Under the pieces are notes generated by a model. That model saw only the letters and a list, made by a program, of their open reading frames with translations. It made no database searches and was not told the origin of the DNA. Shown here one piece after another: positions 29,254-62,738 of a stretch of 64,000 nucleotides of DNA (position 1 is the stretch's first letter; every line of letters begins with the position of its first letter). The position numbers and the translations under genes are program-made. Source of the stretch: Bacteroidaceae bacterium (GTDB lineage: Bacteria > Bacteroidota > Bacteroidia > Bacteroidales > Bacteroidaceae); the NCBI GenBank assembly GCA_017469925.1, contig JAFUFK010000016.1:124001-188000 (forward strand), in the 5' to 3' direction.

Positions 29254-30822
29254 TTATCGGTTCATTACTTTCTTGGTCTTCCCGTTCTTGTCGCACAGGA
29301 TGTTCACCCCACGCTTCGCCTGCGTCTGCCAGCGACCAGAGAGATCGTAGAGAGTGGAGGTATTGTTGCCACCTTCAGCCTCAATGGTTTTGACTGCCGA
29401 GGGAAGAGCTTCTACAATTCTTTTGAAATTCTTCCATCCGTTAGCCGTCTCGTAGTCGGCCTTTTTCCCATATGGCACGGTCAGCGTGGCATTATTGTAT
29501 GTCCATGTGGTGAACACATCGTCGTTAATGTCATAAACGGAAAGAATGTGTGATACGACGTCTCTTGCATTGGAAAATGCAAAGGGTTCCAGATAAGTAA
29601 CATCCTGATGGATGGAGATGGAATCTATGGTCTCCCTATTAGTATAGAAGCAATACTTGCCTACGCCGACAATGTCGTATTCCACATCTCCAATTGATAC
29701 GGTCCGGGGGCATTGAAAGTTAGTGCAATTGCTTCCATAATAAAGTGAAACCTCTGCCTTATGTTCACCTTCTGAGGTTACATGTATGGCCAGACTATCT
29801 TCGGTGAAGAAAAGGCTCTTCTCTACAATGCGCTGACACCTCTTCAGATGGTCATGCTGCATACATTTGTCATAGCTCCCATCGGGAATGAAGAGAACGT
29901 CTTGGGAAGAAAAACTTCGATTTGTGTAATAATTATAGGGAAAGTGGCACACGTCTAAGTTCGGATTTTGCCATACCAACACGCTTTGGGGCTCTGAAAG
30001 ATAGCCATAAAGTGAATCGACGGATTCTGGAAGAATCAATGTCCTGACATTGGGGCTGCCATTCATGTCTTTGAATGACGTTTTGGCTATACTCTTAGTA
30101 CCACCTGCTACGATGCAACAACTGCTTTTGGCATTGGGGTACTCCAATAGTGTCAGGCAATCTTTTGTATAAAGCACACCATCAATATCACAAAAATATG
30201 GGTTTCCCTTATCTACAACAAAGGCTCTTAGATTGCTACACGAATTGCATAAGGCTAAACCGATGGAATCCACGGAGGATGGTATTGAAATAGTCTCGAT
30301 TTTCTTACTGCATTCAAAGGCCCCACGGCCTATTCTCTGCAATCCTGACGGCAAGTCAACCTTTTGCAGTCCAGACCAGTAAAATGCCTTATCACCTATT
30401 ATCTTAAGTGAATCGCCCCACTGGATTTCCGATAAGGCCGTGGTGGAGGAACCGCCCCAAAAGGCTTTTGTCCCAATATCTCTTGTTTGCAGGCCAAGCT
30501 TTATATATGCAATGTTTTTACAACCCTCAAATGCACTGCTACCAATTGTTAACGTAGAGTCAGGAATGATTACCTCTGTCAGCATGTCACACACCTCAAA
30601 TGCTCTTTCCCCAATACTTTTGATACCAGCACCGAGTTTGACACTCTTGAGGTTACGGCAGTAAGAAAACGTCCGTTCATTAATGGCCTCACAAGCATCG
30701 GGTATTATAATCTGCTTCAAAGCTTCACACTTCTCAAAAGCATAGCTCCCTAAACTGCATAAACCATTTTCCAAATCAACGCTTGTCAGGGAAATACATT
30801 TAGAGAATACTTTATGTGCTGA
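29254..30822 (-). pseudogene. BspA-like leucine-rich repeat protein, C-terminal half (interrupted)
   Basis: The frame is open from the stop at 30825 downward, but there is no signal peptide and only a TTG (30774) for a start. The sequence opens in the middle of a repeat (KVFSKCISLTSVDLENGL). It continues with 23-residue BspA-type repeats (AFEKCEALKQIIIPDACEAI; AFEVCDMLTEVIIPDSTLTI; AFEGCKNIAYIKLG), irregular repeats with IPSSVDSIGLAL, and ends in a Bacteroidota C-terminal module (STLYDLSGRWQTQAKRGVNIL, KNGKTKKVMNR). It is the 3' half of the gene whose 5' half lies at 61,860-62,738. The two halves rejoin exactly across the integrated element. Confidence 0.88.
30792..30802. other. Left attachment site of the integrated element
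   Basis: AAATACATTTA on the plus strand (TAAATGTATTT on the gene strand). It matches AAATACAATTA at 61862-61872 in 10 of 11 bases, with an uninterrupted common core of seven bases (TGTATTT on the gene strand), the usual size of a tyrosine-recombinase crossover. It marks where the BspA reading frame is broken. Confidence 0.75.
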
Positions 30823-30925
30823 CTATCAATAGTTTACATGTATAAAGGTAGAAAAGTGAGCTTTTGTGTTGGTCAATGCAAATCAAGGTATAAAGATTTA
30901 ACTGATTTAACGTCTTTTAATGCTC

Positions 30926-31906
30926 CTATTGAATAATGATGGACTGACAAAGCGTTTCATGCCTGCGGCGCATATACTCGCAAAGGGCAGACATCACAAC
31001 GATTTCGAAAACGAAGTAGAGCCAAGGCAGGTCTGCGAGACAACACGCGTAGAGGGCGATGGCCCGGGTGTTGAAGGTGAGAATGTTGGTAAGCGGCATC
31101 AGTGGGAGTGACTGGTGGCGGAACTCCTCACGAAACACCTGCGGTGCATTTCCTGCCTTGTCATACTTGCAGCGGAGCGTAAGTAGCATCCGCTGGGCGG
31201 CAGGGGTAGACTTCTCCTGGCTGCGGGTGTAGTTGACGTAGGTCTTCAGGAAGAACTTTTCTATCAGATGGCCGCGCCAGGGCATGGCATCATAGAGTGC
31301 CTCCTGCTGGGCGGAGGTTGAAAGTTCTGTACCCGCTTCTCCCTTCAGGAAGAACAGGTGCAACTGACGGTAATAGTCTGCCAGGCGGCACTGCCCGCTG
31401 TGGCAGACAAAACCGCTGAAGAGCACCATGCAGAACAGCAGCAAGGCATAGATGAGGGCGTTCGCTTCGGTGTCGGCAATGCCGAGCCAACGGAACTCCA
31501 TGTCGTGATGGAGATAGCATCGCCACACCATAGCGCAATAAACGGGAACGAAAATGATGATGCTGGCGGCACCGTCGAGGATGCGGCCCAACTGCGTCTT
31601 CTGGTTGGTCATACGGGCCAGTTGCCCATCGGCTGAGTCGTAGAAGTTGGCCCACATCATGAGCAGCACGCCGATGATATTCAGTAGCAACCCAGTGCTA
31701 CCCTCGGTACGATAGGAGCCGTGGGCAAAGAACCATGCGGACGAAACGCCGATGAGGATAGACAGGATGGTGACGGTGTTTGGGTGGATGCCGAGGCGGG
31801 CAAAGAGCCGCGCCCACAGGTAGCCGATGGGACGGGTAAACACGCGGTCGAGCCATTCCTCGGTGTCGTTGGACTTATAGGTCTGTTTGATGTCCTGTTC
31901 CTTCAT
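30926..31906 (-). CDS. CDP-alcohol phosphatidyltransferase family protein
   Basis: 326 residues, membrane-bound. These enzymes join a CDP-activated lipid or head group to an alcohol. The signature is present as DSADGQLARMTNQ then GRILDGAAS. The first three Asp are kept, but the fourth position, usually the catalytic Asp, is Ser. Helices are LGIHPNTVTILSILIGVSSAW, GLLLNIIGVLLMMWANFY, SIIIFVPVYCAMVW, and a C-terminal pair (ALYACCLADLPWLYFVFEIV). It is the last gene of the AraC-led operon and ends about 100 bases from the left end of the element. It probably modifies or attaches the product to a lipid head group; this is inference. Confidence 0.78.
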   Translation of the reverse strand: MKEQDIKQTYKSNDTEEWLDRVFTRPIGYLWARLFARLGIHPNTVTILSILIGVSSAWFFAHGSYRTEGSTGLLLNIIGVLLMMWANFYDSADGQLARMTNQKTQLGRILDGAASIIIFVPVYCAMVWRCYLHHDMEFRWLGIADTEANALIYALLLFCMVLFSGFVCHSGQCRLADYYRQLHLFFLKGEAGTELSTSAQQEALYDAMPWRGHLIEKFFLKTYVNYTRSQEKSTPAAQRMLLTLRCKYDKAGNAPQVFREEFRHQSLPLMPLTNILTFNTRAIALYACCLADLPWLYFVFEIVVMSALCEYMRRRHETLCQSIIIQ

Positions 31907-31921
31907 AACTGTTTGTTCCTT

Positions 31922-32956
31922 TCAAGGTTTTATCTTTATCAAAATAAGTCCGATGCAAGCCCAGATGATTTCGCGTACTCTGCAAATGATGCTGATGAAC
32001 ATACCAAGTTCTGCCGTCATACCGAGAGACGCGACAGAAAGGGCAAAACCTCCCTCACGGCCACCAAGTTGCAGGGGGATGAAGCCGATGAGATTAGCAA
32101 AAAGCGAGGTGAACACGAGGATGAGGAAGGCTACGCAGAATTCGTATAGGGATCCGATAACCGACTGCCCTGAGTCAAAGCCGAAGAGCATCAGGATAAA
32201 GAACACTTCAAGGCTCTGAAGGATGCGTCCGGCATATTCAAGGAAGAAACTCTGCAGAAAGGCGCGGCGGTTCTGGCCCTGCAACTGGGCTATCTGCTGG
32301 TCTATCTTCTGTAGGCTCTCACGATGGCCTTCCTCAAAGCGACGGCTCCAGTTCGTGAGTCCAGGAACTCTCCCTAACAGCCGGACGGCCTTACACACCA
32401 ACCCATACTTATATCCATGAGTAAAGAGCCAAATGCCACCTACGCATAACAGAACTGCCAATCCCATCATCCAGCGCATAACCACTGGCAACGGCAACAG
32501 TCCTGCCATCCATAGCAAGGCGTAAACAATGATACCCGTGAGCCAAAACCAGAAATGACTGAACACATGTGTCATCGCAAAGAGTACTACCGACGAGGTG
32601 GCACGTTCTATGCCAACATACTTCGACAGTTCCATGATGCGGTAAGGTTCACCACCTATGCCGCCCACAGGAACGGTGGTGTTGAGTGCAAAACCCGATA
32701 CGACGATTTGCCAAAGACGACAGAATCCGACAGGACACGGGCCGCTGCCTCGTATGATGATCCGCAGGGTAAGGGCATTAAGCCCGTAGAGTAGGCCCCA
32801 CAACAGCACAGCCGCCACGAGCCAATAGCCAGCCCTGTGGATGTAACTGCAGAGTTCAGCGAAACTGACCTTGAACGTCAGCAGCATCACAATGACTGCC
32901 ACAATGCCTATCAGGAACAATACCGTATTCAGCCGCTTCTGCATACCGTCAATCAC
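31922..32956 (-). CDS. Flippase-like membrane protein (LPG_synthase_TM/UPF0104 family)
   Basis: 344 residues with about eight hydrophobic helices. The fold is the membrane part of lysylphosphatidylglycerol synthetases and AglD-type flippases, as shown by ALLWGLLYGLNALTLRIII, the GFALNTTVPVGGIGGEPYR motif (family hallmark), and the late FIPLQLGGREGGFALSV segment. It has no aminoacyl transferase domain. The ATG overlaps the stop of the LolA-like gene by four bases. Together with the next gene it suggests lipid-linked handling of the product in the membrane. Confidence 0.82.
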   Translation of the reverse strand: MIDGMQKRLNTVLFLIGIVAVIVMLLTFKVSFAELCSYIHRAGYWLVAAVLLWGLLYGLNALTLRIIIRGSGPCPVGFCRLWQIVVSGFALNTTVPVGGIGGEPYRIMELSKYVGIERATSSVVLFAMTHVFSHFWFWLTGIIVYALLWMAGLLPLPVVMRWMMGLAVLLCVGGIWLFTHGYKYGLVCKAVRLLGRVPGLTNWSRRFEEGHRESLQKIDQQIAQLQGQNRRAFLQSFFLEYAGRILQSLEVFFILMLFGFDSGQSVIGSLYEFCVAFLILVFTSLFANLIGFIPLQLGGREGGFALSVASLGMTAELGMFISIICRVREIIWACIGLILIKIKP

Positions 32957-33450
32957 TTAATCTCATAGAGAACGTAGTTGCTACCCCGCTCGTTCAGGCG
33001 GAGTTGGCAGAAAGTGGATGTCCTGGCGTCAATGACCAACACGAACGAGGTGAACATCTGCCGCTTCTTTGTTGCTTGCGGGGTGATGGTGACGGTCTTC
33101 CGGCCGTTCTTCGTCGTCACGGTCACCTCTTCACTTTCAGGGATGGGTTCGCCCGTAATGACGGCCTTCAACACCTCGTGGAACGTTGCGAACTGGGGAT
33201 TGCGGCGGCTGTCAGTCACATGCTGCTTGCCGCCAATGGTCATCGTAAACTGCGTACCGTCCATAATGAGTTGTTCGCGTCCCTGGTCGGTCGAGATGGC
33301 GATGTACGCTGGTTTGCGGATGGTTACCGCACCTGTGGTGACTGCATCGGTGGTCATGGCTGCGCGATGCTGGGTGCGTGTCACGCTCTGCGCTGCGCCT
33401 AACGTGGAATGTCCAATGACAAATAATAGTATTAATAGAATCTGCTTCAT
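32953..33450 (-). CDS. LolA-like periplasmic carrier protein
   Basis: 165 residues with a signal peptide (MKQILLILLFVIGHSTLGAA). The mature part is beta-rich, with YIAISTDQGREQLIMDGTQF, MTIGGKQHVT, and a C-terminal FCQLRLNERGSNYVLYEIK, like the short LolA-type carriers found in aryl polyene clusters. Such proteins move acyl products or lipoproteins through the periplasm. Identity to LolA is weak and rests on size, signal peptide, strand pattern and context. It lies 16 bases after the ketoreductase stop. Confidence 0.6.
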   Translation of the reverse strand: MKQILLILLFVIGHSTLGAAQSVTRTQHRAAMTTDAVTTGAVTIRKPAYIAISTDQGREQLIMDGTQFTMTIGGKQHVTDSRRNPQFATFHEVLKAVITGEPIPESEEVTVTTKNGRKTVTITPQATKKRQMFTSFVLVIDARTSTFCQLRLNERGSNYVLYEIK

Positions 33451-33466
33451 AACTCTTAATTCTTAA

Positions 33467-34186
33467 CTAAGTGTACAGTCCTCCGTTGATGGATATGACA
33501 TTGCCGGTGATATAGCCAGCCTGTGGCGAAACGAGGAACGCGACGGCCTCGGCCACTTCTTCGGGAGTGCCGAAGCGCCCCACAGGAATCAGTTTCTTCA
33601 GTTCCGCCTCATCCAGTCCTTGGGTCATGTCGGTACGGATGAAGCCGGGGGCGATGGCGTTCACCGTGATGCCCCGACGGGCAACCTCCTGCGCCAATGC
33701 TTTCGTGGCGGCAATGATGCCCCCTTTGGCTGCCGAGTAGTTGGTCTGTCCGGGCAGTCCCTTCAGTCCGCTGACACTGGCCATATTGACGATGCGCCCT
33801 GATTTGTGGAGTTGCATGGCAGGCAGCAGCGGCTGAGTGACGTTGTAAAAGCCAGACAGGCTAATGTCGAGCACTCGGTGCCAGTCATCCTCCGGCATCA
33901 GGGCCAGCAGGCTGTCGCGCCGTATGCCTGCGTTGTTGACGACGACAGAAATGTATTCCCCCTCATGGCGTTGCTGCCAGTCGGAAAGGGCGGCCCGGGT
34001 CTGCCCGCTGTCGCTCACGTCGAAGGGCAGCAGTTCGCCACGCCCGCAGGTCAAATCCAGAGTCCGCTGCGCCTCTGCCTCGTTACTGGCGTAGTTGATG
34101 ATTACATAATAGCCCTCCCGGGTCAGTCTCACACAGATGGCGCGTCCGATGCCTCGGCTTCCGCCTGTTACTAATGCATATTTCAT
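33467..34186 (-). CDS. 3-oxoacyl-ACP reductase (FabG-like SDR)
   Basis: 239 residues. It is a short-chain dehydrogenase of the classical type: TGGSRGIGRA (NADPH site), NNAGI, and the catalytic Ser137-Tyr150-Lys154 (ASVSG and NYSAAKGG), plus PGFIRTDMT and the C-terminal GNVISINGG, all typical of FabG. In this operon it should reduce the beta-keto group formed by the ketosynthase. It overlaps the oxidoreductase stop by four bases (ATGA). Confidence 0.92.
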   Translation of the reverse strand: MKYALVTGGSRGIGRAICVRLTREGYYVIINYASNEAEAQRTLDLTCGRGELLPFDVSDSGQTRAALSDWQQRHEGEYISVVVNNAGIRRDSLLALMPEDDWHRVLDISLSGFYNVTQPLLPAMQLHKSGRIVNMASVSGLKGLPGQTNYSAAKGGIIAATKALAQEVARRGITVNAIAPGFIRTDMTQGLDEAELKKLIPVGRFGTPEEVAEAVAFLVSPQAGYITGNVISINGGLYT

Positions 34187-35598
34187 AAGTCTAAACTTTT
34201 AATTGTCTCCAGTGCCGCCATTGTCACCCCTTCCACTCCATGCATCGCCAGGCTCTGCCCTGTCAGGAAGAGGTTGGGAACGGGTGTCTTGGGCGAGAGC
34301 ATCGTCAAGAGCGGCGTACGGCAGTCTTTTCTGACACCAAAAGCGGAGCCGCAGGGCGACAGCGTATAGTCGCGCCATGTGAGCGGTGTGCTGGTGAAGC
34401 ACTTGTCCACCATCGTCCCCAGACCTGGGATGACACGCTCGGCCAACAGGATACACGCATCGGCCAACCGCTCCTTCTGCAATTCGTAGATTTCTCCCCG
34501 TCGGCCAACCTTCGTGTCTTGCCAATGCTGCCACGAAGTCCACGGCATCGGTGTCAGCAAGTCTATCTGGCGGACATAAGAAGTTCCGTCTTCAGGCACC
34601 CTCGCGCTCACCATCACGCGGTCTATTGTTGTTCCACCCATTGGGGCCTCCCACACGTTGGCCTCCCTGTAGACATACTTGTTATGATTAAAATAAGGCA
34701 GCGTGTTCGGCTTCAGCACCAGCGAGGCTGTGAACATACCCGTGGTATTCTCCAGGCTCAGGAGGCGTTTGCGGTAGATGGATTTCTGTATATCGTTTGT
34801 TTTCACCATGCAGATGGTCTGCGCTGGATGGACGTCGCTGATAAACACGTCGCCCTCATAGTGTTCACCGTCCTTGCAGAAAGCGGAGAGGACCCGGCCG
34901 TCGTGCATAATCAACTCTTCTACGTCGGCGTTGCAGACTATCTGACCGCCCAATCGCCTGATACCGTCGATGAGCGTCTGCACCAACACGTTACCACTGC
35001 CCTTCAGTCGCCAACTGCTCTGTATGTAACTGCTCTGGGCGTGTGCAAACGTGAACAGGGGCAGCGACTCACGACGCAGTTCCAGTTTCATCGCCGCTCC
35101 CGACAGCACATTGACCAGCAACGGATTGCGAAACTTGTTGCACAGATAGTCGTAGGCATTGGTGCCCATCAGCCCCACCGTGTCGGCCTCATTCTGCACC
35201 ACGCGCTGCAGCATCTTCACATAATCTTTCAGTGCTTCCCGCTCCTCTGGGAAATACGCTGCCATCGTCTCGGCGAAGCGGTCATAGCCCTCGGCCATGC
35301 AAAAAGTCTGCTCCCCGATGGTGATGCGGTCGAACCCGTCGGCATCCAGTCGTTGCCATTCCAAGCCCAGCAACCCTAACCGCTTGAACGCCTCATGCAG
35401 CGGCTGTCCCTCGGCCAGACCTCCCACATAGTGCAACCCCGTGTCGAACTCCAGTCCGCCGCGTCTGTAACTCTGCAAGCACCCGCCCGGCTGCCGCTGC
35501 CGTTCCAGCACAAGCACGCTCCGACCACGCCTTGCCCACTCGTGGGCACAGATGAGGCCGCCCAGTCCACTACCTATAATTACTACGTCATATTTCAT
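34183..35598 (-). CDS. FAD-dependent oxidoreductase, CrtI/phytoene desaturase-like
   Basis: 471 residues from ATG 35598, which overlaps the MMPL stop (ATGA). A Rossmann FAD site starts at residue 4 (VVIIGSGLGGLICAHEWARRG), followed by LERQRQPGGCLQSY and TGLHYVGGL. The C-terminus has the second FAD motif, NLFLTGQSLAMHGVEGVTMAA. The overall pattern is that of carotenoid isomerase, desaturase and retinol saturase enzymes. In the operon it could desaturate or isomerise a polyene chain. The substrate is unknown. Confidence 0.85.
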   Translation of the reverse strand: MKYDVVIIGSGLGGLICAHEWARRGRSVLVLERQRQPGGCLQSYRRGGLEFDTGLHYVGGLAEGQPLHEAFKRLGLLGLEWQRLDADGFDRITIGEQTFCMAEGYDRFAETMAAYFPEEREALKDYVKMLQRVVQNEADTVGLMGTNAYDYLCNKFRNPLLVNVLSGAAMKLELRRESLPLFTFAHAQSSYIQSSWRLKGSGNVLVQTLIDGIRRLGGQIVCNADVEELIMHDGRVLSAFCKDGEHYEGDVFISDVHPAQTICMVKTNDIQKSIYRKRLLSLENTTGMFTASLVLKPNTLPYFNHNKYVYREANVWEAPMGGTTIDRVMVSARVPEDGTSYVRQIDLLTPMPWTSWQHWQDTKVGRRGEIYELQKERLADACILLAERVIPGLGTMVDKCFTSTPLTWRDYTLSPCGSAFGVRKDCRTPLLTMLSPKTPVPNLFLTGQSLAMHGVEGVTMAALETIKSLDL

Positions 35599-38147
35599 AT
35601 GTTGTGAAGGTTTAGCCATCGGAATACGGCTGGCTGGAGGACGTAGGAAAGGATGACAGCGGAGATGAGGCCGACGAGGGTAGAGAAACCGACACTGCGG
35701 ATGGCGGGATGGACGGCAAGGAGCATGCTACTGACGGTGACAATGAGGATGATGGCGGAGAGCAGCACGGCGGTCTTGTGGTAATGCAGATTTCCGTGGA
35801 CGAGTCCGTTCATGACGAAGATGCTGTAGTCGACACCGATGCCGAAGATGAAGGTGGAAATGATGATGCTGATGAGGTTGAACTGTTGCCCGAAGATATT
35901 CATCACCCCCAGAACAATGAGCCAACTGAGCAGGATGGGGGCAAAGCCTAACAGAGTATGCTGCCAGCGGAAACGGAACGAGACGAGCAGTACGATAAAG
36001 ACAAAGGCCATCGAGAGCCATTGCAACACGTCGAAGTCACGGCTCATCTGGAGCAGGTTGTCGGTGGTGTAATAATAGGTGTCGAGCACCATCAGATGGG
36101 GATTGCTGCTGACGGCATCGCAGATTCGGATGTAGTCGCTGTCGGTGCTACGCACGGAGTCGTTGGCACAGCGCACGGAGGTGAAGCAGAGCCACGTGCC
36201 GTCGTACGACTGTTCCATCAGCGTAGAGAGGTAGCCCTCGGGGATGATGCCGGCCTCATAGAGCGCATCAGGCTCGTAGTCGGCAGTGGCTATCTCGAAG
36301 AAAGGCTCGAAGGCCTCGGGGCGCAGACCTGACTGAGGAGCCGTTTCGGCGATAAGGCGTCGCACAGTCTGTAGCCGTTCGGGATTCCAGAAATGCCGCC
36401 AAGCATCGATACGCTGTTGCTGTGTCTTCAGGGGCACCATCAACTGGTTGGTATGGGTGTAACTTTTCACCAGACCGAGCCGCTGCAGGGAGTCGAGCGT
36501 GTGGTCGAGCAGGGCGAAGTGGTCGAGGGCCTCCTCCATCGTGCGGCCCTGACTGGCGAAGTACTTCGCTTTGTCGCCCGTATAGGTCTTGCTGCTCAGC
36601 AGGTTCTCCGAATGTTTCACCATCGGGTGGTCATAGCCCAGATTGTGCATGTCGGCATCGAAGTGAGTGCCACCGATGAAGTAGGCACAGATGGCTATTG
36701 CCGTCAGACCGAGAATAGCGACAATGAGCGGTTTCTTGCGGTCGAAAGGATAGGTATTGAGACGGTCGATGACTTTAAGTGAAGAATGAAGAGTGGTCTT
36801 TTCACTTAAAAGTTGCGGCAGATAGACGAGCGAGAACAAGGTGGTGCCGAGAATGGCGAAGGCGGCAAAGAGGCCGAAGTCGCGCAGCAGGTCGGTGTTG
36901 ACAAACAGAAGTCCGGCAAAGGAGCCAATCGTGGTGATGCAGCCCAGCAGGACGGGCTTCACCTGGTCGCGCAGCAGTTGGACGGGGTCGCTGACATACT
37001 GGTGGTGGGTCAGGATGTGGAGCACATAACTGAGTGCCACGCCCAGTACCACGCCGCCGATGCCTAGGGCCAGCAGTGAGAACTCCCCTTTAAGCCAGTA
37101 CATCACAGCCAGGCCAAACAACGTGCCAAAGGCTACGGGCAGCAGAAGCAGGGGGATGGTGTCCCAGCGACGGAAACAGCATAGCAGGAACAGCAACACC
37201 AGCACGAGTGCGCCGGCAATCGTGGTCGTCAGGTCGTGCTTGATTTGTGTGGAGTTGTAAAAACCGCTGGCGGGTGTGCCGTGATAACTGATGCGCACAT
37301 CGGGATGAGCCACAGCAAACTCAGCAATGAGTTCGTTCATCATCCGGAACATGGTCGAGCCTTGTCCCGTGTTCGTGGCCGAATACTCCGGGGTGATGAA
37401 TGCGATGCAGACGGTGGAGTCAGGGACAAGGAAATGGGCAGCCTCACCCCCAGCCCCTCTCCAAAGGAGAGGGGAGTAGTCACCTTTGCTATCAGAAGCC
37501 TCAGAAGCAGAACTATCCACACCCCTCTCTTTGGGAGGGGTGAGGCTTTGAACAAGAATTTTTCGCATTCCCATCGGATCCATCTGGACCAGTTCCGGGA
37601 ACATACTGCCGAACTCGCCTGTCAGGTCGCTGCGATTCTGCGCCATCTGACGGGTGAAGTGTTCGCGTGTCAGCAGGGTGTCGATGGCTGCGTAGGCAGA
37701 GGTGTCTATGTAGGCAGGCAGGTGTTCCGTCAGGTAGTCGATGCCGTCGGGCAGCAGGTCTTCGTCTATGCGGTAAAAGACATCGCCAATGCCGTGACTG
37801 AGTGAGTCGCGGGACAGCAGCGAGTCGACAAATTCGTCGCAGACAGATGTGAGATTACTAACCCCGCCCCCAACCCCTCCCCTACATGGGAGAGGAGCGG
37901 CTGCACCTTGTCCGTTGGTTGCTTCAAAGAGGAGGAATACCTTATCCTTAATCTTCAGATTTGCAAAGGCCAGTTTGGTTGTTCCGTCCTCGTTTTTCGA
38001 TGACGGCATCAGTTGGTTGATGTCTTCCTCCAGGTGCAGTTGAGCAGCGTAGTAGCCGAAGAATGCAAAGAGAGCCACCAGCGACAGCCAGCAGACGGGC
38101 CGGTGGTTGCGGAAATAGGTGTAGATATGGATGAACAGCCTTGTCAT
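35595..38147 (-). CDS. MMPL/RND-type lipid exporter with in-frame repeat inserts
   Basis: 850 residues. Twelve hydrophobic helices lie in two sets, each with a periplasmic domain; the first helix is VCWLSLVALFAFFGYYAAQL. Conserved segments GIGGVVLGVALSYVLHILTH and FGIGVDYSIFVMNGLVHG are the paired helix-4-like motifs of MMPL transporters. Three tracts are repeat DNA read in frame: residues about 83-96 (APLPCRGGVGGGV), about 200-236 (SLTPPKERGVD and LLWRGAGG), and a short one near 455 (TTLHSSL). All fall in soluble parts, so the protein may still work. It overlaps both neighbours by four bases. It is the likely exporter of the product, as in aryl polyene clusters. Confidence 0.88.
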   Translation of the reverse strand: MTRLFIHIYTYFRNHRPVCWLSLVALFAFFGYYAAQLHLEEDINQLMPSSKNEDGTTKLAFANLKIKDKVFLLFEATNGQGAAAPLPCRGGVGGGVSNLTSVCDEFVDSLLSRDSLSHGIGDVFYRIDEDLLPDGIDYLTEHLPAYIDTSAYAAIDTLLTREHFTRQMAQNRSDLTGEFGSMFPELVQMDPMGMRKILVQSLTPPKERGVDSSASEASDSKGDYSPLLWRGAGGEAAHFLVPDSTVCIAFITPEYSATNTGQGSTMFRMMNELIAEFAVAHPDVRISYHGTPASGFYNSTQIKHDLTTTIAGALVLVLLFLLCCFRRWDTIPLLLLPVAFGTLFGLAVMYWLKGEFSLLALGIGGVVLGVALSYVLHILTHHQYVSDPVQLLRDQVKPVLLGCITTIGSFAGLLFVNTDLLRDFGLFAAFAILGTTLFSLVYLPQLLSEKTTLHSSLKVIDRLNTYPFDRKKPLIVAILGLTAIAICAYFIGGTHFDADMHNLGYDHPMVKHSENLLSSKTYTGDKAKYFASQGRTMEEALDHFALLDHTLDSLQRLGLVKSYTHTNQLMVPLKTQQQRIDAWRHFWNPERLQTVRRLIAETAPQSGLRPEAFEPFFEIATADYEPDALYEAGIIPEGYLSTLMEQSYDGTWLCFTSVRCANDSVRSTDSDYIRICDAVSSNPHLMVLDTYYYTTDNLLQMSRDFDVLQWLSMAFVFIVLLVSFRFRWQHTLLGFAPILLSWLIVLGVMNIFGQQFNLISIIISTFIFGIGVDYSIFVMNGLVHGNLHYHKTAVLLSAIILIVTVSSMLLAVHPAIRSVGFSTLVGLISAVILSYVLQPAVFRWLNLHNI
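37439..37549. repeat. Inverted pair of GC-rich palindromic repeats in the MMPL gene
   Basis: The first copy, at about 37439-37480, has the core CCCCTCTCCAAAGGAGAGGGG; the second, at about 37513-37549, has CCCCTCTCTTTGGGAGGGG and ends TGAGGC, the complement of the GCCTCA at the start of the first. A single further copy lies at 37859-37901 (core CCCCTCCCCTACATGGGAG). All keep the reading frame. Confidence 0.8.
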
Positions 38148-38560
38148 TGCATGAACATCTTAAGTTTCGCGTTGGCTATCACTTCATCGCCGATGCAACA
38201 CCGTCCCTCGACGAGTGCCACGTTGCCCATGCTGAATACAAACGTGATGGTGGTGCGGACGAGGTGCCCTGCCTTTGGTCGGCGCAGGCACTCGAAATGC
38301 TTCACCTCGCCGATGAGTCCTATTTGAGGGTGAGCCTGGTCTTTCTGCTGATAACCGGCGAGTGCTGCCGCCGACTGGGCGATATGCTCTATCAGTCCCG
38401 TCTCGGTCAGTGTGCCGCCGGGCAGGATGAAGAGGTTGTCGGTACGGACATACAGGGCGGTTTGGGCGGCATTGTCGCCTGTCGCCTCAAACTCATCCAC
38501 CATCACAAACGGATTGCGCTGGGGGATGAGTCGCAGTATGTCCGTACCCGTCAACTTCAT
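38144..38560 (-). CDS. Hotdog-fold 3-hydroxyacyl-ACP dehydratase-like protein
   Basis: 138 residues, FabZ/ApeP-like. The segment LIPQRNPFVMVDEF aligns with the FabZ motif LPHRYPFLLVD, but the catalytic His is replaced by Gln14. The partner acidic residue is kept (GLIEHIAQSAAA, Glu58), with a His next to it. The central helix and the C-terminal strands (HFECLRRPKAGHLVRTTITF; ALVEGRCCIGDEVIANAKL) fit the fold. It could be a dehydratase with altered chemistry, a thioesterase, or a structural partner. It overlaps the ACP and MMPL genes by four bases on each side. Confidence 0.8.
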   Translation of the reverse strand: MKLTGTDILRLIPQRNPFVMVDEFEATGDNAAQTALYVRTDNLFILPGGTLTETGLIEHIAQSAAALAGYQQKDQAHPQIGLIGEVKHFECLRRPKAGHLVRTTITFVFSMGNVALVEGRCCIGDEVIANAKLKMFMQ

Positions 38561-38802: not shown

Positions 38803-38813
38803 AATTGTTTACT

Positions 38814-40034: not shown

Positions 40035-40035
40035 A

Positions 40036-41169: not shown

Positions 41170-41170
41170 A

Positions 41171-42052: not shown

Positions 42053-42075
42053 CTGCGTTGAAATCAAATCGGATG

Positions 42076-43164: not shown

Positions 43165-43179
43165 GTTCGTTTATCTGTT

Positions 43180-50494: not shown

Positions 50495-50517
50495 CAGCAT
50501 CAAAGTGGCAAAAAGGT

Positions 50518-54950: not shown

Positions 54951-57074
54951 TTATCTCTTGAGCCTGTATCTTGGTACAAACATAGTTTTTGCCATCTGAT
55001 GGCATCGTTTGGCAAAGGCCAGTTCATCCTCATCGTCCTTCCTCTTGGGCAGTTCGTTGTTGCCACCACCGCCGTCACAGGTCTCAGCAATGTTGGTTGC
55101 AGCATCAAGGTATCCGAAGAACAGACAGGCGGTGGCAGCAGCCACGTCCTCTATATCTTTAGCAACACCTTCAGCCATGTCAAGACCGAGGTTCTTTAGA
55201 TATTCTACACCCGCTTCTGCGCCAATCTCCCATACTTCCGTCTCGGTTCGTGGGTCGATGTTGCGCACGGCATTGGCCAGTTTCAAAAGCCAGCCCGATT
55301 CGTTTAGCCGCCCTTCTGGATTTTTGCCCAAGGCATTTCTGACCGTATCTTTTCCGCTTGCACCCATCTCGTACTCATCCAACTTCGGGTCTGTTACCAC
55401 CTCAACGGCATTCCAGAGTCCCGCCCACGATTCTTCCAGCACTTTATGGGCCTTGTCAAACTGGTCGGCTTTCTCCTTGGCTTCCATATAAGACTGCTTG
55501 CAGATGCCCATCTTCTGCATCTCGTCATACTCCCTGATTTTCTTGACGGCTACGGCATTCTGCCTGAGTTCCTGCTTGACAATAGCACGACTCCTGCGTG
55601 TCAGTTCCTGGATATGTGTACTGTCAAAACTGCGGAGGATGGTCTGCATGTCGGTCATGATGCTTTTGATATCCTTGTTCTGTTCCTTCCTGAAATCATC
55701 CGCATCCCTAAACAGCGGCTTCTTCCTGTCCTTCACCTTCTCCATCTCCTCAAAAGCCGCCATGATGACATCCATCATCCTCACCTTCATTTTATCCTTC
55801 GCCTTCAGGTTAGCAACTACGGCTCCGCTGCTCGTCGGGTTATAGGCAAAAACACTCTCTAAGAATCCCGTAACCTCAACCGCCTCATTCGGGTCGCCGA
55901 CAGCATTGGCCAGTTCATCAACCTTCTGTTCAAGTGCCGTCAGCTCATTCCGAACATTATCCTTCCTCTCATTTACTTCATCCAATTCCGTCTGAGCAGA
56001 AGACAATTCCTGTTGCTTCCCTTGCAGTCGTAGCGCAGTTTCATTGTAGTTTGCTGCCGATTTTTCTGCCTCCCGTTCAGCCAACCCCGTCTTTTCAAGA
56101 GCCTCCAACCGCTCGCGTTCCAACTGTCGCTTGCTTTTCTTCCGATGCTCCTTCCGCTCCTCAGCTGTCATCAGCGAAGTGTCCTCTCCGCGCTGAAGTC
56201 CCCACTTTTCACTGACTTCCTCAAACAGCATCGTGTGCCAATGCTTGTACGACTGCCGTGCAGCAAACTTGGTCTCGCCGAAATAATACGAGTAACTGAC
56301 CGACGGCACCGTCTTCTTCCCGGCAGGCTGATACATCTTCTGCTCATCCTCACTCAGACGGGTAAAATGCCTTGTCGTGATATGCTCAGGGCGCTCCTTC
56401 CCATCCTTCTTTGCATCATCCTTCAGTTCATATCCACCAACACGTCCGCGCTTCGCTCTCATGGCAACAGGTATCACAAGGGCATGGAAATGTGGCGTCG
56501 TCTCGTCCAGATGACACTCCAGGCCTATGACGTTTTCCTCGCCGAAGTGGCGGCAGAGGAAGCCATAGTAGTCCCATGCCATTGTCTCAATCTGCTTTTG
56601 CCCTGTGTTCTTCGGGTCGTCGGCCAGTGTGACTTTGCTGTTGTCCTTTCTCCAATCCAGATCCATCGGCTTGCCAAAGGCTATCTCCGTCATGCGGTCG
56701 TGGTCGCCGCTGAACACGAAGTCGATGCAGGTGTTCGGCTGGTTGGGGGCATCCTTCGCCCATGGCTTATAGTCCAGTTCCTTTAGTCGTTGCTCATAGC
56801 GTTCCTTCAACGTCTGTCGTTGGGTTTCGAGTCTGGCGATGACGGGTTGAGTGAACACGGTCTTTCCGTTCCGCAGCACCATCTTCCTGCCAGGTCTTAT
56901 CTCAAAGTTGAGATGCTTCCTCGACCAGTCGTAGCGGTTTCCTGGTTCTTTGTTCTTGGCATCATAGGTCTCTTTCGTCCAGCCACGACGCTCGTTTTCC
57001 CTGCCCTGCGCAGAGGCAAAGGACGGGGAGGCAGAGATGTTCAGAGACTGGTATTGCTTGTCGCAAATCTGCAT
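54951..57074 (-). CDS. MobV-family relaxase (plasmid mobilization protein)
   Basis: 707 residues. The relaxase domain (about 1-280) has the HUH-like metal motif HLDETTPHFHALVIP and the upstream FCRHFGEENVIGLECH. The long C-terminal part is a coiled coil (LSSAQTELDEVNERKDNVRN and flanking heptads) plus a helical domain. It should nick at oriT and pilot single-strand transfer with help from a conjugative element. The start (MQICDKQYQS) is uncertain, since the first ~30 residues are unlike other MobV proteins. The gene is at the 3' side of the candidate oriT. Confidence 0.9.
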   Translation of the reverse strand: MQICDKQYQSLNISASPSFASAQGRENERRGWTKETYDAKNKEPGNRYDWSRKHLNFEIRPGRKMVLRNGKTVFTQPVIARLETQRQTLKERYEQRLKELDYKPWAKDAPNQPNTCIDFVFSGDHDRMTEIAFGKPMDLDWRKDNSKVTLADDPKNTGQKQIETMAWDYYGFLCRHFGEENVIGLECHLDETTPHFHALVIPVAMRAKRGRVGGYELKDDAKKDGKERPEHITTRHFTRLSEDEQKMYQPAGKKTVPSVSYSYYFGETKFAARQSYKHWHTMLFEEVSEKWGLQRGEDTSLMTAEERKEHRKKSKRQLERERLEALEKTGLAEREAEKSAANYNETALRLQGKQQELSSAQTELDEVNERKDNVRNELTALEQKVDELANAVGDPNEAVEVTGFLESVFAYNPTSSGAVVANLKAKDKMKVRMMDVIMAAFEEMEKVKDRKKPLFRDADDFRKEQNKDIKSIMTDMQTILRSFDSTHIQELTRRSRAIVKQELRQNAVAVKKIREYDEMQKMGICKQSYMEAKEKADQFDKAHKVLEESWAGLWNAVEVVTDPKLDEYEMGASGKDTVRNALGKNPEGRLNESGWLLKLANAVRNIDPRTETEVWEIGAEAGVEYLKNLGLDMAEGVAKDIEDVAAATACLFFGYLDAATNIAETCDGGGGNNELPKRKDDEDELAFAKRCHQMAKTMFVPRYRLKR

Positions 57075-57299: not shown

Positions 57300-57731
57300 C
57301 TACTTATTTACGCCTTTGCCTACAGATGCTGCGCCGGTTGCAAACGCATCGTCTGCATAATCCGAGACGTCACTGATGTTTTCACCACTTACTATGTCCC
57401 CGTCATTTGCTGCGTCCGCGAGTTGAGGAGTTGACGCTGCATTTGCTTTCTTCGCAGCAGTATTGGGGCGTGTAGTATTCTTCACCGCCCTGCACTTCGC
57501 ACTCTCGCTGCACTTGCGGCTTTTCACCTCTGCAGCCTCACGCTGGGTGTCAAGGTCGTTAGCCATCAAGTCAAACAAGACTTCCAGGCGAACGTCATCC
57601 AAGACGGGTCTGATGCCGTCGCTGGCATACTTGGCAATGGCTTTCACCAGTTTTCCGACTTCTGCGTTCGGACGCGAACATGCTACGTTCAGCACGTTCG
57701 TTAATAATGGAATACGCTCAAGTGTCTTCAT
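57300..57731 (-). CDS. Small basic protein, possibly DUF6291-like
   Basis: 143 residues. The N-terminal part, VGKLVKAIAKYASDGIRPVL followed by LEVLFDLMANDLDTQREAAE, resembles small phage or element proteins of the DUF6291 type, where a helical domain precedes a Lys/Arg-rich region. The second half is low complexity (SRKCSESAKCRAVKNTTRP, then acidic SGENISDVSDYADDAF). It overlaps the stop of the HTH gene by four bases, so the two are co-transcribed. The function is unknown; it could aid mobilization or replication. Confidence 0.45.
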   Translation of the reverse strand: MKTLERIPLLTNVLNVACSRPNAEVGKLVKAIAKYASDGIRPVLDDVRLEVLFDLMANDLDTQREAAEVKSRKCSESAKCRAVKNTTRPNTAAKKANAASTPQLADAANDGDIVSGENISDVSDYADDAFATGAASVGKGVNK

Positions 57732-58147
57732 GCTTCTTTCGTTTTAGTGGTTCGACCATCCTGCCGGTTTATCCAGCTCGACTTGCCGGGCTTGCGCCTG
57801 TGCGAAGCGAGGATTGCCAGGTTCTCTTCCTCGACAGTCATCGGCACGGCGTTCTTACGTTTGACCTCCAGCCACTTGTCAAGTTCGTCATTGAAGAGCA
57901 CCCATCGCTTGCCGGGCTTCGAACCTGGGACTTCGCCCTTTTGCAGTTTCATGTAGAGCGTGTTCAGCGGCATGCGGAGATACTCGGCTGCCTCCTCTAC
58001 GTTCATCGTGCGACGTACACGTTTCATCACCTGATGCGTTTGCTGTTTCTGAAGGTCAAGCATCAACACCTTCATGCCAATCACTTCATCCCGAAGCTCG
58101 GCAACGACCTTTGGCAGGTCGTCGAAAGTTAAGACATCATTGTTCAT
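57728..58147 (-). CDS. Helix-turn-helix (excisionase-like) protein
   Basis: 139 residues. An N-terminal coiled segment (LPKVVAELRDEVIGMKVLML) is followed by an HTH_17/MerR-type domain: MNVEEAAEYLRMPLNTLYMK then GEVPGSKPGKRWVLFNDELD. This matches the DNA-binding domain of excisionases and similar Bacteroidota element proteins. It could bind att sites or oriT. It is co-transcribed with the following gene by a four-base overlap. Confidence 0.82.
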   Translation of the reverse strand: MNNDVLTFDDLPKVVAELRDEVIGMKVLMLDLQKQQTHQVMKRVRRTMNVEEAAEYLRMPLNTLYMKLQKGEVPGSKPGKRWVLFNDELDKWLEVKRKNAVPMTVEEENLAILASHRRKPGKSSWINRQDGRTTKTKEA

Positions 58148-58301: not shown

Positions 58302-59078
58302 TTATTTGCCTGGATAGTGAAATTCGTAGCTGCCGTTCTCTGGTTTGTCAATCGCTATAACGAACCTGCCCTGGGCGGTCGTCAGGTTACGGCGAATGGT
58401 CTCAACCTCAGCGTTCATCACGCTAGAGAACAGGTTCTTTACAAACAGGGCACGGACGTTGCCTGTATAACCGTCAGAAATCATCGACAGCCTTTCACCT
58501 ATGTTCCAGACGAAATGCATTAAGTCGGTGGGGCCAAGCCGTTTTTTCAGCCTCACCTCCTTTGGTGTGTAAACATAGCTTTCCGACCATCCCATCACTT
58601 CGGCCAGCAACTGATTCATCTGCGGTTCCTCCATATAGGGTGCCATGACATAGCGGATATACTTGTCAATGGCAATGATAATGTTTTCCTCCCGTTCCTT
58701 CTTCTCTATAGCAACTGCTTCGTTACGGCTCTGGTAATCCTCATGGTTTGCGGTTTCGCTAATGACAAAGGGTGTGGCTGGTGCTGCCAGAGGTGTTTCG
58801 GCCATCATGCCAATGACGGGGGCTGTGGGGCGTGTTTCCTTTTCCCTCTCGTTGAAAAAGAAGAAGCCAAGACGTGTAGCCGACATCACCAGTGCGAAGA
58901 CAAGCCACAGCAAGCCGTTGGCACAGAGGAATGCCACCGTCTTCAACAGCGGGTCTTGTCCGATTGGAGGAATAAACTTGATGACCGCCATCAGCGAAAT
59001 CATCATGATTGCTATGCCAACACCGACGTACGCGATGCGGCTTTCAAGAATGGAAAAGTCTTCTTTCTTAATTGTCAT
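58302..59078 (-). CDS. Element-encoded membrane protein, unknown function
   Basis: 258 residues from ATG 59078 (MTIKKEDFSILESRIAYV); an ATG at 59111 would lie in the promoter. Two hydrophobic helices (VGVGIAIMMISLMAVIKFI and TVAFLCANGLLWLVFALVM) precede a soluble C-terminal domain of about 170 residues with IIIAIDKYIRYVMAPYMEE, LLAEVMGWSESYVYTPKEV, LFVKNLFSSVMNAE and ETIRRNLTTAQGRFVIAID. The middle is Ala/Pro-rich. No family is recognised. It has its own promoter and terminator and lies in the mobility region of the element. Confidence 0.65.
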   Translation of the reverse strand: MTIKKEDFSILESRIAYVGVGIAIMMISLMAVIKFIPPIGQDPLLKTVAFLCANGLLWLVFALVMSATRLGFFFFNEREKETRPTAPVIGMMAETPLAAPATPFVISETANHEDYQSRNEAVAIEKKEREENIIIAIDKYIRYVMAPYMEEPQMNQLLAEVMGWSESYVYTPKEVRLKKRLGPTDLMHFVWNIGERLSMISDGYTGNVRALFVKNLFSSVMNAEVETIRRNLTTAQGRFVIAIDKPENGSYEFHYPGK

Positions 59079-59108
59079 TATTGCTATCCTGTTTTTTTTA
59101 TTTGAGTG

Positions 59109-59116
59109 CAAAGGTA
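59109..59116 (-). promoter_or_regulatory. Promoter -7 element of the element membrane protein gene
   Basis: Minus-strand TACCTTTG (59116-59109), with a TTGG-like -33 about 21 bases upstream. It decides the start: ATG 59078 lies about 30 bases downstream, whereas the longer ORF start at 59111 would lie inside the promoter. Confidence 0.6.
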
Positions 59117-60541: not shown

Positions 60542-61510
60542 TTAGAAAATATGATAGCTGCCATATAGGGCCAGTCGTTCCTCCATAATCCTGTCGAAGT
60601 CAGCCTTGGGTATTAGGTTCTTTACTCCAACTCGGACAGTAGCAATACTGTTCTTCTTGACAATGATGCTGACATTGGCAGTGCTCATGCCATATTTTTC
60701 GGCAGCTTGCTTGGTTGTAAAATAGCTGTCATCGGCTACAAGGTCTGTGCGCCTCAACTGCTCAAAGTGGTCCTTGGAGTAGTAGGTCTGCCCATATTCC
60801 CGCTTGGTCGGGATGTGATGTCGATAAGCATTGGAGCGGACAGAGGCTGCACTCATGCCGTACAGTTTCTGGGCCTCCTTCATCGTCAGCCACTCACAGA
60901 TGGCCTCTATATCAGCAGACAATCCAAACAACTTATTCATGTGCTTACGGCTGTAGTAATTCTTACCTGCTATCCGACACACTGGCACTTGGTTCCGTTT
61001 GGCCGACGTATACAGCCAAGACTTCTTGACTTTATAGATACTCAAGACTTCCTCGCCAGAAATGTAGTCAAGCACTTCGGATTCTTGGCAATTTGCCTTA
61101 TCGATTTTGGTTGCTACCTTGCCTTTACCCACTGAAATGCCTGTCGTTTTCTTCGGCCTGCTTGTCGGCAACACCCGATGATATGGATTCCCTGCCAGCA
61201 TCTTCTCAATGTCAGCCTTACGGATAAACGCCATCCTGCTGCTGATACGCGATGCCTCCAGTTTTCCCTCGTTCACCAGCTTATAGACATACTGCCGAGA
61301 ACATCCCATCAGTATTGCAGCCTTGGCAAACGTCAAATACTCCTGATGTTGCAACCCAATCACGGGTTCAATAGCATTGAGGAAGTCCTGTTTTCTTTTC
61401 TTCCTGACTTCTTTGGCTTTCGTCTGGCATTCCTCGCAGCAATACTTCTGCATACCGCTCCTTGCTACGAACTCCTTTCCACAAAACTTGCATTTTCTCA
61501 CTTGTCTCAT
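60542..61510 (-). CDS. Zinc-finger protein with four tandem helix-turn-helix domains
   Basis: 322 residues from ATG 61510 (MRQVRKCKFCGKEFVARSGM); the longer ORF start adds 22 residues that look noncoding. An N-terminal zinc finger (CKFCGKEF and YCCEECQ) precedes four HTH_17-like modules, each with a helix-turn-helix and a beta-wing: LTFAKAAILMGCSRQYVYKL, ISGEEVLSIYKVKKSWLY, LTMKEAQKLYGMSAASVRSN, and FTTKQAAEKYGMSTANVSII. Four tandem excisionase-type domains in one chain is uncommon. It is next to the integrase and to the direct repeats at 61,589-61,686, so it may be the element's excisionase or a directional switch. Confidence 0.8.
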   Translation of the reverse strand: MRQVRKCKFCGKEFVARSGMQKYCCEECQTKAKEVRKKRKQDFLNAIEPVIGLQHQEYLTFAKAAILMGCSRQYVYKLVNEGKLEASRISSRMAFIRKADIEKMLAGNPYHRVLPTSRPKKTTGISVGKGKVATKIDKANCQESEVLDYISGEEVLSIYKVKKSWLYTSAKRNQVPVCRIAGKNYYSRKHMNKLFGLSADIEAICEWLTMKEAQKLYGMSAASVRSNAYRHHIPTKREYGQTYYSKDHFEQLRRTDLVADDSYFTTKQAAEKYGMSTANVSIIVKKNSIATVRVGVKNLIPKADFDRIMEERLALYGSYHIF

Positions 61511-61588
61511 TTTGGCACTTTTTGATGGTTCAACGTATCTTTCTCTTTCCCTACCGTTAAGCCAACCATACTTCACATTCGTTGCCCG

Positions 61589-61686
61589 TTGTCAACTCCG
61601 TCCGCATTGTTGCTCTCTCAGAATCCATCCGCTCCGTTTTGTCACTTCTTGCACCTCATCGTAACCCTTTGTCAACCGAGTCCGCA
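61589..61686. repeat. Two 18-bp direct repeats near the right end of the element
   Basis: TTGTCAACTCCGTCCGCA (61589-61606) and TTGTCAACCGAGTCCGCA (61669-61686) match in 15 or more of 18 bases, with starts 80 bases apart. They lie between the HTH gene and the right attachment site, where arm-type binding sites of an integrase or excisionase are expected. The rest of the 283-base gap 61,577-61,859 holds no gene. Confidence 0.6.
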
Positions 61687-61859
61687 AAGTGACGATTTCG
61701 AAGCCCCGTAAATTCCTCGCGGTAGAAATACGTTGCAAAAATATACTGAAATTCGGTAACTACCAAATTCCAACCGTCAAGTGTTAAAAATCAAAAGTAA
61801 CTGAAAATGAGTAAGATATAAATAGTTGTTATCGGTCTTTCATGGTTATTATGACCTAT

Positions 61860-62738
61860 CTAAATACAATTACGGAAGGCCTTATATCCTATTTCCTTTA
61901 ATGTGCTTGGGAGAGAAATCGATTCCAAATTGCTACAGTTTTGAAAGGCACTATCTGAAATCTTACGAAGAGAGTTTCCCACGCTTATTTCCTTGAGGGC
62001 AGATCCACCGAAGGCTCCATACTCAAGAACTTCAAGACTATTAGGAAGAACGATTGTTTGTAGGGAAGATGCCCCAACAAACGCTCGATCACCTATAACT
62101 TTCACATTGTTTCCGACCTGTACCTTTTCCAACTTCTTACACGACTCAAAAGACCAATCCCCGATGGTGTCCACTTGATTGCCTATCGACACCTCGTTAA
62201 GATTGTCACAGAGTCCGAAAGCGCGGTAATGAATCGTCATGTCCTCTCCTTCGTGTATAAAATCACCTATAGTTACCTTCTCCAAAGAATCACAGTCTAG
62301 GAAGGCTGCGTTCATGATGTCTGTTACGGTGTAGGGGATATCAACTTCCTTAAGCTTTGTCTTATAGAAAGCGCTTGCATCTATAAATTTGAGTGAAAAA
62401 GGAAGATTAATATCTCTCAAACCGGTGTTCTCGAAAGCGTGATATCCAATCGAAACAATAGAGTTCGGCAATGTCACTGAAATGAGCGCTTCATTATCCC
62501 TAAAGGCTTCAGTTGCAATCGCGACTACTTTATAATTAATATTCTCTACATGAACGACCGCCGGAATAACAATGCTACCTGAGTATTCTTTTGAATAATC
62601 GAAAAACGGCCCCTCATATGTGACAGCCAACGAGTCCTGACCTATTATATTATAATATATGCCATCGACTTCGAAGTCATAGGCAAAAGAATAGGTCGAT
62701 ATAACAGAAAGAAAAAATAGAATAAATACCTTTCTCAT
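61860..62738 (-). pseudogene. BspA-like leucine-rich repeat protein, N-terminal half (interrupted)
   Basis: 292 residues from ATG 62738, with a good Shine-Dalgarno (AAGGAGAAAG) upstream. A signal peptide (MRKVFILFFLSVISTYSFA) leads into an N-terminal beta-domain (FEVDGIYYNIIGQDSLAVTY) and about eight BspA-type repeats (AFRDNEALISVTLPNSIVSI; AFENTGLRDINLPFSL; AFVGASSLQTIVLPNSLEVL). The frame stops at TAG 61860-61862, immediately after RNCI, where the element begins. The C-terminal half is at 29,254-30,822. As it stands the product lacks its C-terminal module and about half of its repeats. Confidence 0.88.
61862..61872. other. Right attachment site of the integrated element
   Basis: AAATACAATTA on the plus strand (TAATTGTATTT on the gene strand), matching the left site at 30,792-30,802 in 10 of 11 bases. 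Confidence 0.75.

Follow-up and report, generated by a model that had tools for sequence, protein, structure and literature searches.

A 31-kb integrative element that very probably targets a fixed codon position of BspA-type leucine-rich repeats in Bacteroidaceae and related bacteria

The 64,000 nucleotides of a Bacteroidaceae bacterium genome analysed here (assembly GCA_017469925.1, contig JAFUFK010000016.1, positions 124,001 to 188,000; hereafter the window) contain two halves of a BspA-type leucine-rich repeat (LRR) gene, separated by some 31 kb of DNA in which 26 genes were counted, a small acyl carrier protein (ACP) gene included. A mobility module encoding a tyrosine recombinase (integrase) and a relaxase-like protein adjoins the N-terminal half, and a cargo of biosynthetic, efflux and defence-type genes extends from there to the C-terminal half (Table 1). 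The original prediction, of a 31-kb integrative element of about 25 genes that splits a BspA-like gene, was borne out in that the two halves are in register and both ends of the interval recur as element ends elsewhere. We consider it very probable that positions 30,799–61,874 (31.07 kb) are an integrative element that targets a fixed position of the BspA repeat with a six-base overlap.

The N-terminal half encodes 292 amino acids with a signal-peptide-like start (judged by eye), and its last codons and stop are supplied by the element end; it stops at 61,860 after RNCI, as had been predicted, the translation ending AFRNCI-stop. The C-terminal half runs from 29,254 to about 30,810 on the minus strand, with no start codon and with two stop codons immediately upstream. 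Its description as an open frame without a start holds, and the predicted beginning within a repeat near 30,822 has been corrected: the open frame extends a few codons into element DNA and the repeat proper starts near 30,804. When both Cys codons are superposed, rejoining the halves gives the expected 23 residues exactly between AF landmarks, a spacing of 22–28 residues (mostly 22–23) in the N-half repeats and of 23 in the first C-half repeats. As first noted, a heptamer is shared by the two ends: AAATACA, which reads TGTATTT on the complementary strand, is found at 30,792 and at 61,862. This heptamer is not rare, with six copies on the plus strand and one on the minus strand of the window, and on its own it is weak evidence for a junction; register and heptamer alone therefore leave doubt, and relatives were required.

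Ten relatives from the same genus were aligned at the integrase side (loci and contigs are cited by our own L and G handles). In eight of these TCTAAATACA (TGTATTTAGA on the other strand), which occurs once in the window, closes the element end and the flanks beyond it diverge; the end is not evident in G095C26, and G112C116 stops short. Of the eight flanks, five consist of LRR genes oriented in the same direction, one (G077) adjoins an LRR gene in the opposite direction and two are non-LRR. At locus L129, whose integrase is 96 % identical, homology to the window begins at the exact junction and continues inwards through the mobility module and relaxase (86.6 % and 89.4 %), whereas no blastn match between the two was found outside the junction, L129 being sited in a different BspA gene. 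In many close integrase relatives (L130, L131, L133, L134, L136, L137, L139–L142, L145 and others) TGTATCTAAA replaces TGTATTTAGA, and the in-frame stop is retained.

A wider survey took the best 80 of 356 integrase relatives in named genomes, of which 14 had less than 1,560 bp upstream, leaving 66 loci for assessment. At 53 of these the element end follows [x]F..C of a BspA repeat exactly and in frame, that is, at the Cys codon of AFxxC, so that end and target position are both observed directly. All 52 target sites compared read TGT-xxx-TA[A/G], with an in-frame stop one codon after the Cys. The same end-to-repeat junction is present in isolates, namely Prevotella communis E15-14 (complete genome, L183), Prevotella sp. 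P6B1 (L141), P5-108 (L151) and P. lacticifex (L161). A strict LRR unit was found within 4 kb upstream of 49 of 55 family integrases, as against 4 of 155 background 4-kb chunks and none of 13 distant integrases (33–61 % identity; two with less than 4 kb upstream). This counter was our third. The first was discarded after firing on 73 of 77 background chunks as well as on 55 of 55 family loci, and the second after it detected none of the 55 family loci and none of 162 chunks; that the counter was changed after results were known is a weakness of the comparison, and the exact-position test is independent of it. A 56-row integrase tree was built from 42 of the 80 survey loci together with the window and 13 rows from the genus; in it, all 40 LRR-sited or LRR-adjacent rows fall within one 46-row clade with a Shimodaira–Hasegawa-like approximate likelihood ratio (SH-aLRT) support of 99, and the ten rows outside it are not LRR-sited, a directly visible restriction to one integrase clade. 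The survey loci are not all independent, some genomes giving several (e.g. L136/L142, L175/L181, L184/L206 and L186/L187), and L153, L157, L160, L167, L176 and L190 are loci already present under G handles. That this integrase clade uses one codon position of BspA repeats as its site is nevertheless well supported.

The opposite end was approached through G008C6, from another species. Its element, 19.4 kb long and with different cargo, is flanked by an LRR N-terminal half and C-terminal half in register and shares a conserved far end with the window. The resulting pattern (ATCA, 18 bases, GGTAGAAAAGTG) has a single match in the window's own genome, at window positions 30,825–30,858, and occurs in 37 of 139 genomes of the genus, counting that of the window, while a reversed control pattern gave none. 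Reading outwards, 27 of 38 loci (26 without L255) passed the test for an LRR repeat at the Cys codon, the 38 being drawn from 53 distinct places; in the genus set it was passed by 15 of 20 loci read from 50 places, the 15 including the window, G008C6 and one repeat (L316 being L252). Three of the 38 loci (L256, L265 and L272) have unusual spacing and are probably chance matches, and L255 passes but runs to a contig end and was excluded from the far-end sequences analysed below. Both ends were found on one contig for LRR-sited elements in G512:C10 (approximately 16.8 kb) and G514:C34 (approximately 22.8 kb), and for non-LRR elements at L208 (approximately 17.8 kb) and G022C7 (approximately 15 kb). 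At L181 (1,189–1,934) and L151 (7,044–8,497) a far end lies upstream of an integrase-side end with several LRR repeats between them, in what looks like the same gene, so that two elements may be able to occupy one LRR gene in tandem.

To locate the exchange, 52 target repeats were compared with 305 other repeats of the same genes (L187 was dropped, its target gene being that of L186). Targets resemble the other repeats up to the base before the Cys codon, except for a stronger Pro codon at −42/−41 (98 %, or 51 of 52, versus 65–74 %) and smaller differences at −39, −36, −30, −13 and −1; element sequence begins with the third base of the Cys codon. The Cys codon is TGT in 52 of 52 targets, a count biased by the search pattern, versus 135 TGT and 170 TGC among the other repeats, and the integrase side reads TGTAT, or nearly so, at 62 of 66 loci, with the same bias. 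At the far end the Cys codon is TGT in 17 and TGC in 10 loci of the first set, and TGT in 5 and TGC in 10 of the genus set. From this pattern, TGT would belong to the element at the integrase end, and the Cys codon, TGT or TGC, would be the gene's own at the far end. Since ownership of this codon differs between the ends, and six variable bases stand between the far-end arm and the Cys codon, exchange most likely takes place within the six bases encoding xx, and the two x codons are likely to be the 6-bp overlap. The Pro preference at −42/−41 hints at recognition over about 45 bp, possibly by the protein with three helix-turn-helix (HTH) stretches described below; it could also stem from mixed repeat types in the comparison set.

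The six bases differ between the two ends in each of the four complete LRR-sited elements (window, CGTAAT/TCTAAA; G008C6, CTATAC/TCTAAT; L206–L236, TCAGAC/GGATAT; L201–L237, TTCGGA/CATAAT), a difference read directly from the junctions. Among 28 far-end sixes there is no stop codon and 27 are distinct. Scored as LRR x codons, the far-end sixes have a mean of 1.11 and the integrase-end sixes of 1.77, compared with −2.49 for the element interior and 2.34 for the other repeats, which were the training set of the score; none of 20,000 resamples was as high as the far-end sixes. One six of each pair would come from elsewhere and, both sets being BspA-like, this fits serial residence in BspA genes.

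These data bear on a simpler reading, a site-specific insertion with TGTATTT as an identical core, at which the original prediction had rejoined the halves. The heptamer is indeed present at both window ends. In addition, the far-end arm of the window is GTATTC where the usual arm is AAATAC (11 of 27), and its flank by chance reads TGTATTT, so the window alone cannot separate such a core from a 6-bp overlap. In relatives, however, the gene side of the far end is TGT or TGC followed by many sequences, TGTAT belongs to the integrase side, and the sixes before it differ between ends. We therefore regard the identical core as improbable; the crossover probably lies outside the shared TGTATTT, with the overlap in the 6 bp before TGT. 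A core TACA with CTCTAAA arms, derived from the window and G008C6 alone, was dropped once TGC far ends appeared.

It could also be argued that only the 8-kb mobility module (approximately 53.6–61.87 kb) is mobile and that the cargo arrived separately or is old chromosome. The GC content of the cargo (0.578) is like that of the flank at 20,000–29,253 (0.577) and unlike that of the mobility module (0.499), and the core of the biosynthetic cluster occurs with no window-type integrase in the stretches read of ten genus genomes. Against this, the far end shared with G008C6, which is found once in the genome, stands at 30.8 kb on the other side of the cargo, the integrase-side end string is likewise single in the window, and L139 (uncultured Prevotellaceae RUG10775) carries a similar type of cargo behind its relaxase gene; such a composite is very unlikely. 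That an assembly or rearrangement artefact in a metagenome-assembled genome flanked the segment with unrelated BspA fragments, as its state (85.8 % complete, 28 contigs) and its abundance of BspA-like sequence might suggest, is scarcely credible when the halves meet in register and the same end-to-repeat junction is found in many genomes, isolates included.

Several observations weigh against an element addressed to one repeat position. Among the 66 survey loci, six lie in or next to LRR genes, either off-position or with the end unlocated (L132, L152, L179, L188, L200 and L205), and seven are non-LRR (L162, L165, L180, L189, L196, L199 and L208). Four of the 66 lack a TGTA..TA site of the kind sought; moreover, the integrase-side search demanded TGTA with a following TA, which biases the counts of TGT and of stop codons. 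Six non-LRR rows lie inside the 46-row clade, where the label needs seven changes on a quick tree, and the outside rows, several on long branches, were called non-LRR from at most 4 kb upstream. The far-end motif is missing in 6 of 14 and in 20 of 50 genomes with a family integrase, and most records are metagenome-assembled. No circular form or transfer was observed. Neither an empty site nor an intact ortholog was found in searches with flank DNA and protein or in viral contigs: flank DNA gave only matches of 31–117 bases outside the window's own genome in 101 genus genomes (best E 1.9e-14, 117 bases), and the C-half protein, with at most 10 candidates scored per genome, had its best match outside that genome at 38 % identity over residues 1–224 of 512 in 139 genus genomes. 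That search matched BspA-like sequence in 139 of 139 genomes and is uninformative on orthology; the protein upstream of the N-terminal half has matches in 3 of 138 relatives (33–38 % identity), and viral contigs searched with the C-terminal half gave no match. As an observation apart, G022:C7 (L101/L102), with a 62 %-identical integrase, has its element in what by eye resembles an IS982-type transposase gene, at a site reading GCATTT-six-TGT.

We propose that the tyrosine recombinase would insert the element between the F and Cys codons of AFxxC. The 6 bp of the two x codons, possibly extended by the TG that comes next, would serve as a strand-exchange overlap in which a match would not be required. 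The x-codon pairs at the two ends of one insertion would differ, with the present gene as the source of one and an earlier site as the source of the other, and the integrase-side end would supply TGT-ATT-TAG, so that the interrupted gene stops just past the join while its other half is left without a start. In a circular form, the far-end arm is predicted to be joined to TGTATTTAG or TGTATCTAA through six bases. In this scheme we infer excision, mobilization by a helper, carry-over of the x codons and the part played by the three-HTH protein. The interrupted BspA gene is most likely inactivated, judging from its reading frames. BspA-like sequence is abundant in the window's genome (16 protein matches, with 10 of 41 candidate stretches scored), so the loss of a single BspA gene may be cheap for the host. 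More tentatively, BspA-type LRR genes, of which a genome has many copies and each copy many repeats, might serve as a distributed landing platform. Each cycle of insertion and excision could exchange both variable codons of a single AFxxC repeat for a pair from another BspA gene, and the elements would in this way act as a codon-pair shuttle, altering surface residues of LRR proteins in different genes and species.

Short, non-identical coupling sequences are a feature of CTnDOT and Tn916, whose ends carry donor-derived bases, and as in those elements the overlap in the window family may differ between partners; unlike in them, it coincides with two codons of a repeat motif, and at both ends its bases resemble codons of that motif. 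The Bacteroidales integrative and mobilizable elements (IMEs) NBU1, NBU2, Tn4555, Tn5520 and MTnPi1-4 resemble the window element in having a tyrosine integrase, a relaxase and cargo, in helper-dependent transfer and in the clustering of integration genes at one end; Tn5520 is given a MobV relaxase in the passages of an IME review used here (PMC5704250). The sites named there for tyrosine-integrase IMEs are tRNA and gene ends, loose or AT-rich consensus sites, oriT and the preferred loci of Tn4555, with no protein-repeat codon position among them, and insertion at gene ends is described as leaving the target gene undisrupted, whereas the window element cuts through its target (PMC5704250). A variable stretch within the attachment (att) site, as in the window family, is described for P. 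intermedia MTnPi1-3 and CTnPg1-type elements (TTAC NNNNN AA; TTTTCNNNNAAAA) (PMC4755523, PMC5704250), but the account of MTnPi1-3 gives an integrase pair and describes no gene-family target (PMC4755523). The targeting protein TnpA of Tn4555 is, as outlined in the same review, encoded by a separate gene upstream of the integrase gene (PMC5704250), and our three-HTH gene occupies a comparable position. In the open-licence literature searched, no report of BspA repeats as an integration or att site was found. Members of the family, which would form one clade of elements in many related gut and rumen bacteria, land repeatedly at the same codon position of the repeat; their address would be a codon within a recurrent protein motif, and not a tRNA or a single conserved gene. 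The family offers a possible explanation for broken BspA genes in Prevotella-like bacteria and provides a signature for finding element ends in assemblies (GCNTTY, six bases, TGTAT[T/C]TA; at the far end ATCA-18-GGTAGAAAAGTG), and it makes testable whether mobile elements rewrite repeat codons of surface proteins. In the window, the ends of one mobile unit enclose biosynthetic-cluster and efflux genes together with a gene of defence type.

Table 1. Features of the element and of the interrupted gene (window coordinates)
Feature	Coordinates	Strand	Basis
N-terminal half of interrupted BspA-type LRR gene	61860..62738	-	LRR_5 E 2.8e-54; translation
Probable 6-bp overlap, integrase-side junction (x codons of AFxxC, Arg-Asn)	61869..61874	-	Inferred from family
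Integrase-side element end, starts TGTATTTAG (in-frame stop)	61730..61868	-	Relatives' ends; inner limit 61,730 approximate
Protein with three HTH_17/excisionase-type stretches	60542..61576	-	HTH_17 E 1.3e-26; TIGR01764
Tyrosine recombinase (integrase), 386 aa	59247..60407	-	Arm-DNA-bind_5, Phage_int_SAM_5, Phage_integrase
Membrane-protein-like gene, mobility module	58302..59111	-	Position kept in genus elements
HTH_17 protein, mobility module	57728..58147	-	Pfam; position conserved
DUF6291 protein, mobility module	57300..57731	-	Pfam
MobV-like relaxase	54951..57074	-	NF041497 98.0 bits, cut-off 100, E 7e-28
AbiD-like (Abi_2) gene	53691..54635	+	Abi_2 E 3.7e-50; PADLOC AbiD E 2.9e-64
Patatin-like phospholipase, Omp85-type C-terminus	51441..53498	+	Pfam
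AraC-type regulator	50434..51444	+	Pfam
Tripartite RND efflux set (outer membrane factor, RND pump, adaptor)	44606..50337	-	OEP, ACR_tran, HlyD; RND_mfp
Acyltransferase, patatin, alpha/beta hydrolase, AraC regulator	41171..44600	-	Pfam
Polyketide/fatty-acid-type cluster (aryl-polyene-like)	30926..41199	-	Profile matches, partly by eye
Far end of element (inner arm and conserved ATCA..GGTAGAAAAGTG block)	30805..30858	-	Conserved with G008C6; single own-genome match
Probable 6-bp overlap, far junction (Ser-Lys codons)	30799..30804	-	Inferred from family
C-terminal half of interrupted BspA-type LRR gene	29254..30798	-	LRR_5 E 5.6e-51

Within the mobility module, the integrase gene starts about 1.46 kb from the junction, in agreement with the 1.5 kb first given. 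The integrase (domain accessions PF00589, PF13102 and PF17293) has R234, K262, H323, R326, H349 and Y358, residues invariant across eight aligned integrases including that of the window, which we take to be catalytic. The relaxase-like gene that had been named as MobV was found, but its score lies narrowly below the MobV family cut-off (98.0 versus 100 bits), so that we call it 'MobV-like' only; against Pfam Mob_Pre it scores 23.6 bits, below the cut-off of 25.5. Its translation contains the motif HLDETTPHFH, which we take to be a relaxase signature. No Pfam match to conjugation genes was found in the 25 of 26 element proteins scanned (all but the ACP). The element thus has its own integrase, ends shared with independent copies and a relaxase accompanied by no recognised conjugation apparatus, and on these sequence features is most likely an IME. 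The three-HTH protein, which has a Cys-rich motif at its N-terminus (by eye), has its gene next to that of the integrase in 9 of the 10 genus loci whose integrase identity is at least 62 %, the contig ending first in the tenth; it is a candidate directionality or targeting factor, the targeting role being a guess. The membrane-protein-like gene has no Pfam family match; it has counterparts at the same position in genus elements (26–32 %) and in L129 (87 %). In genus elements with integrases of more than 80 % identity it retains an identity of only about 30 %.

Of the cargo genes, the AbiD-like gene is a likely phage-defence function, to judge from its profile matches. The cluster comprises genes for a CDP-alcohol transferase, an LPG-synthase-TM protein, a LolA-like protein, FabG, a flavin adenine dinucleotide (FAD) oxidoreductase, an MMPL protein, a dehydratase-like protein, the ACP (38557–38802, by eye), a ketosynthase (KS) and a GNAT-like protein; the LolA-like and GNAT-like labels are our own assignments, with no Pfam match behind either. 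Aryl polyene and flexirubin-type clusters feature a KS, an ACP, a dehydratase, a ketoreductase, an MMPL protein, a LolA-like protein and an acyltransferase, and further a second KS, an ammonia lyase and a starter CoA ligase. By Pfam, the KS, ketoreductase, MMPL and acyltransferase are present and the dehydratase falls under both curated cut-offs; no second KS, ammonia lyase or starter CoA ligase was found among the scanned cargo proteins, and hence we term the cluster 'aryl-polyene-like' only. A seven-gene core (LolA-FabG-FAD oxidoreductase-MMPL-dehydratase-KS-GNAT) is present in 10 of 138 genus relatives with about 60 % MMPL identity, its order being complete in 8 of the 10 fetched and cut by contig ends in the other two. 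Three genomes from other genera have the core with a 93–94 % identical KS (G412 lacking a FabG match), again with no window-type integrase in the stretches read. For the 12.3-kb cargo stretch at 38,000–50,300, no other full-length copy was found among the matches listed in 399 family genomes, with one or two candidates scored per genome; parts of it have 63–80 % identity among those matches.

L139, in a BspA gene with an 89 % identical integrase, is a second family member with biosynthetic cargo. Its cluster, which runs from behind the relaxase gene to the contig end and exceeds that of the window in length, includes FabG, three KS-type proteins, an ACP, an O-methyltransferase, a thioesterase, acyltransferases, two FAD oxidoreductases and an MMPL relative (10 open reading frames were scanned). 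The cluster genes of the window and L139 are far apart (KS 57 %, MMPL 24–34 %), and their occurrence in two family members suggests that the association of cluster and element is not one single accident. At L139 together with L290 (CACWOS010000042.1, locus 18,105–38,748) the cluster is aryl-polyene/flexirubin-like, and the relaxase gene reads as two frames. Finally, the window cargo holds two patatin-like genes, at 43,180–44,040 and at 51,441–53,498, the latter with the Omp85-type C-terminus.

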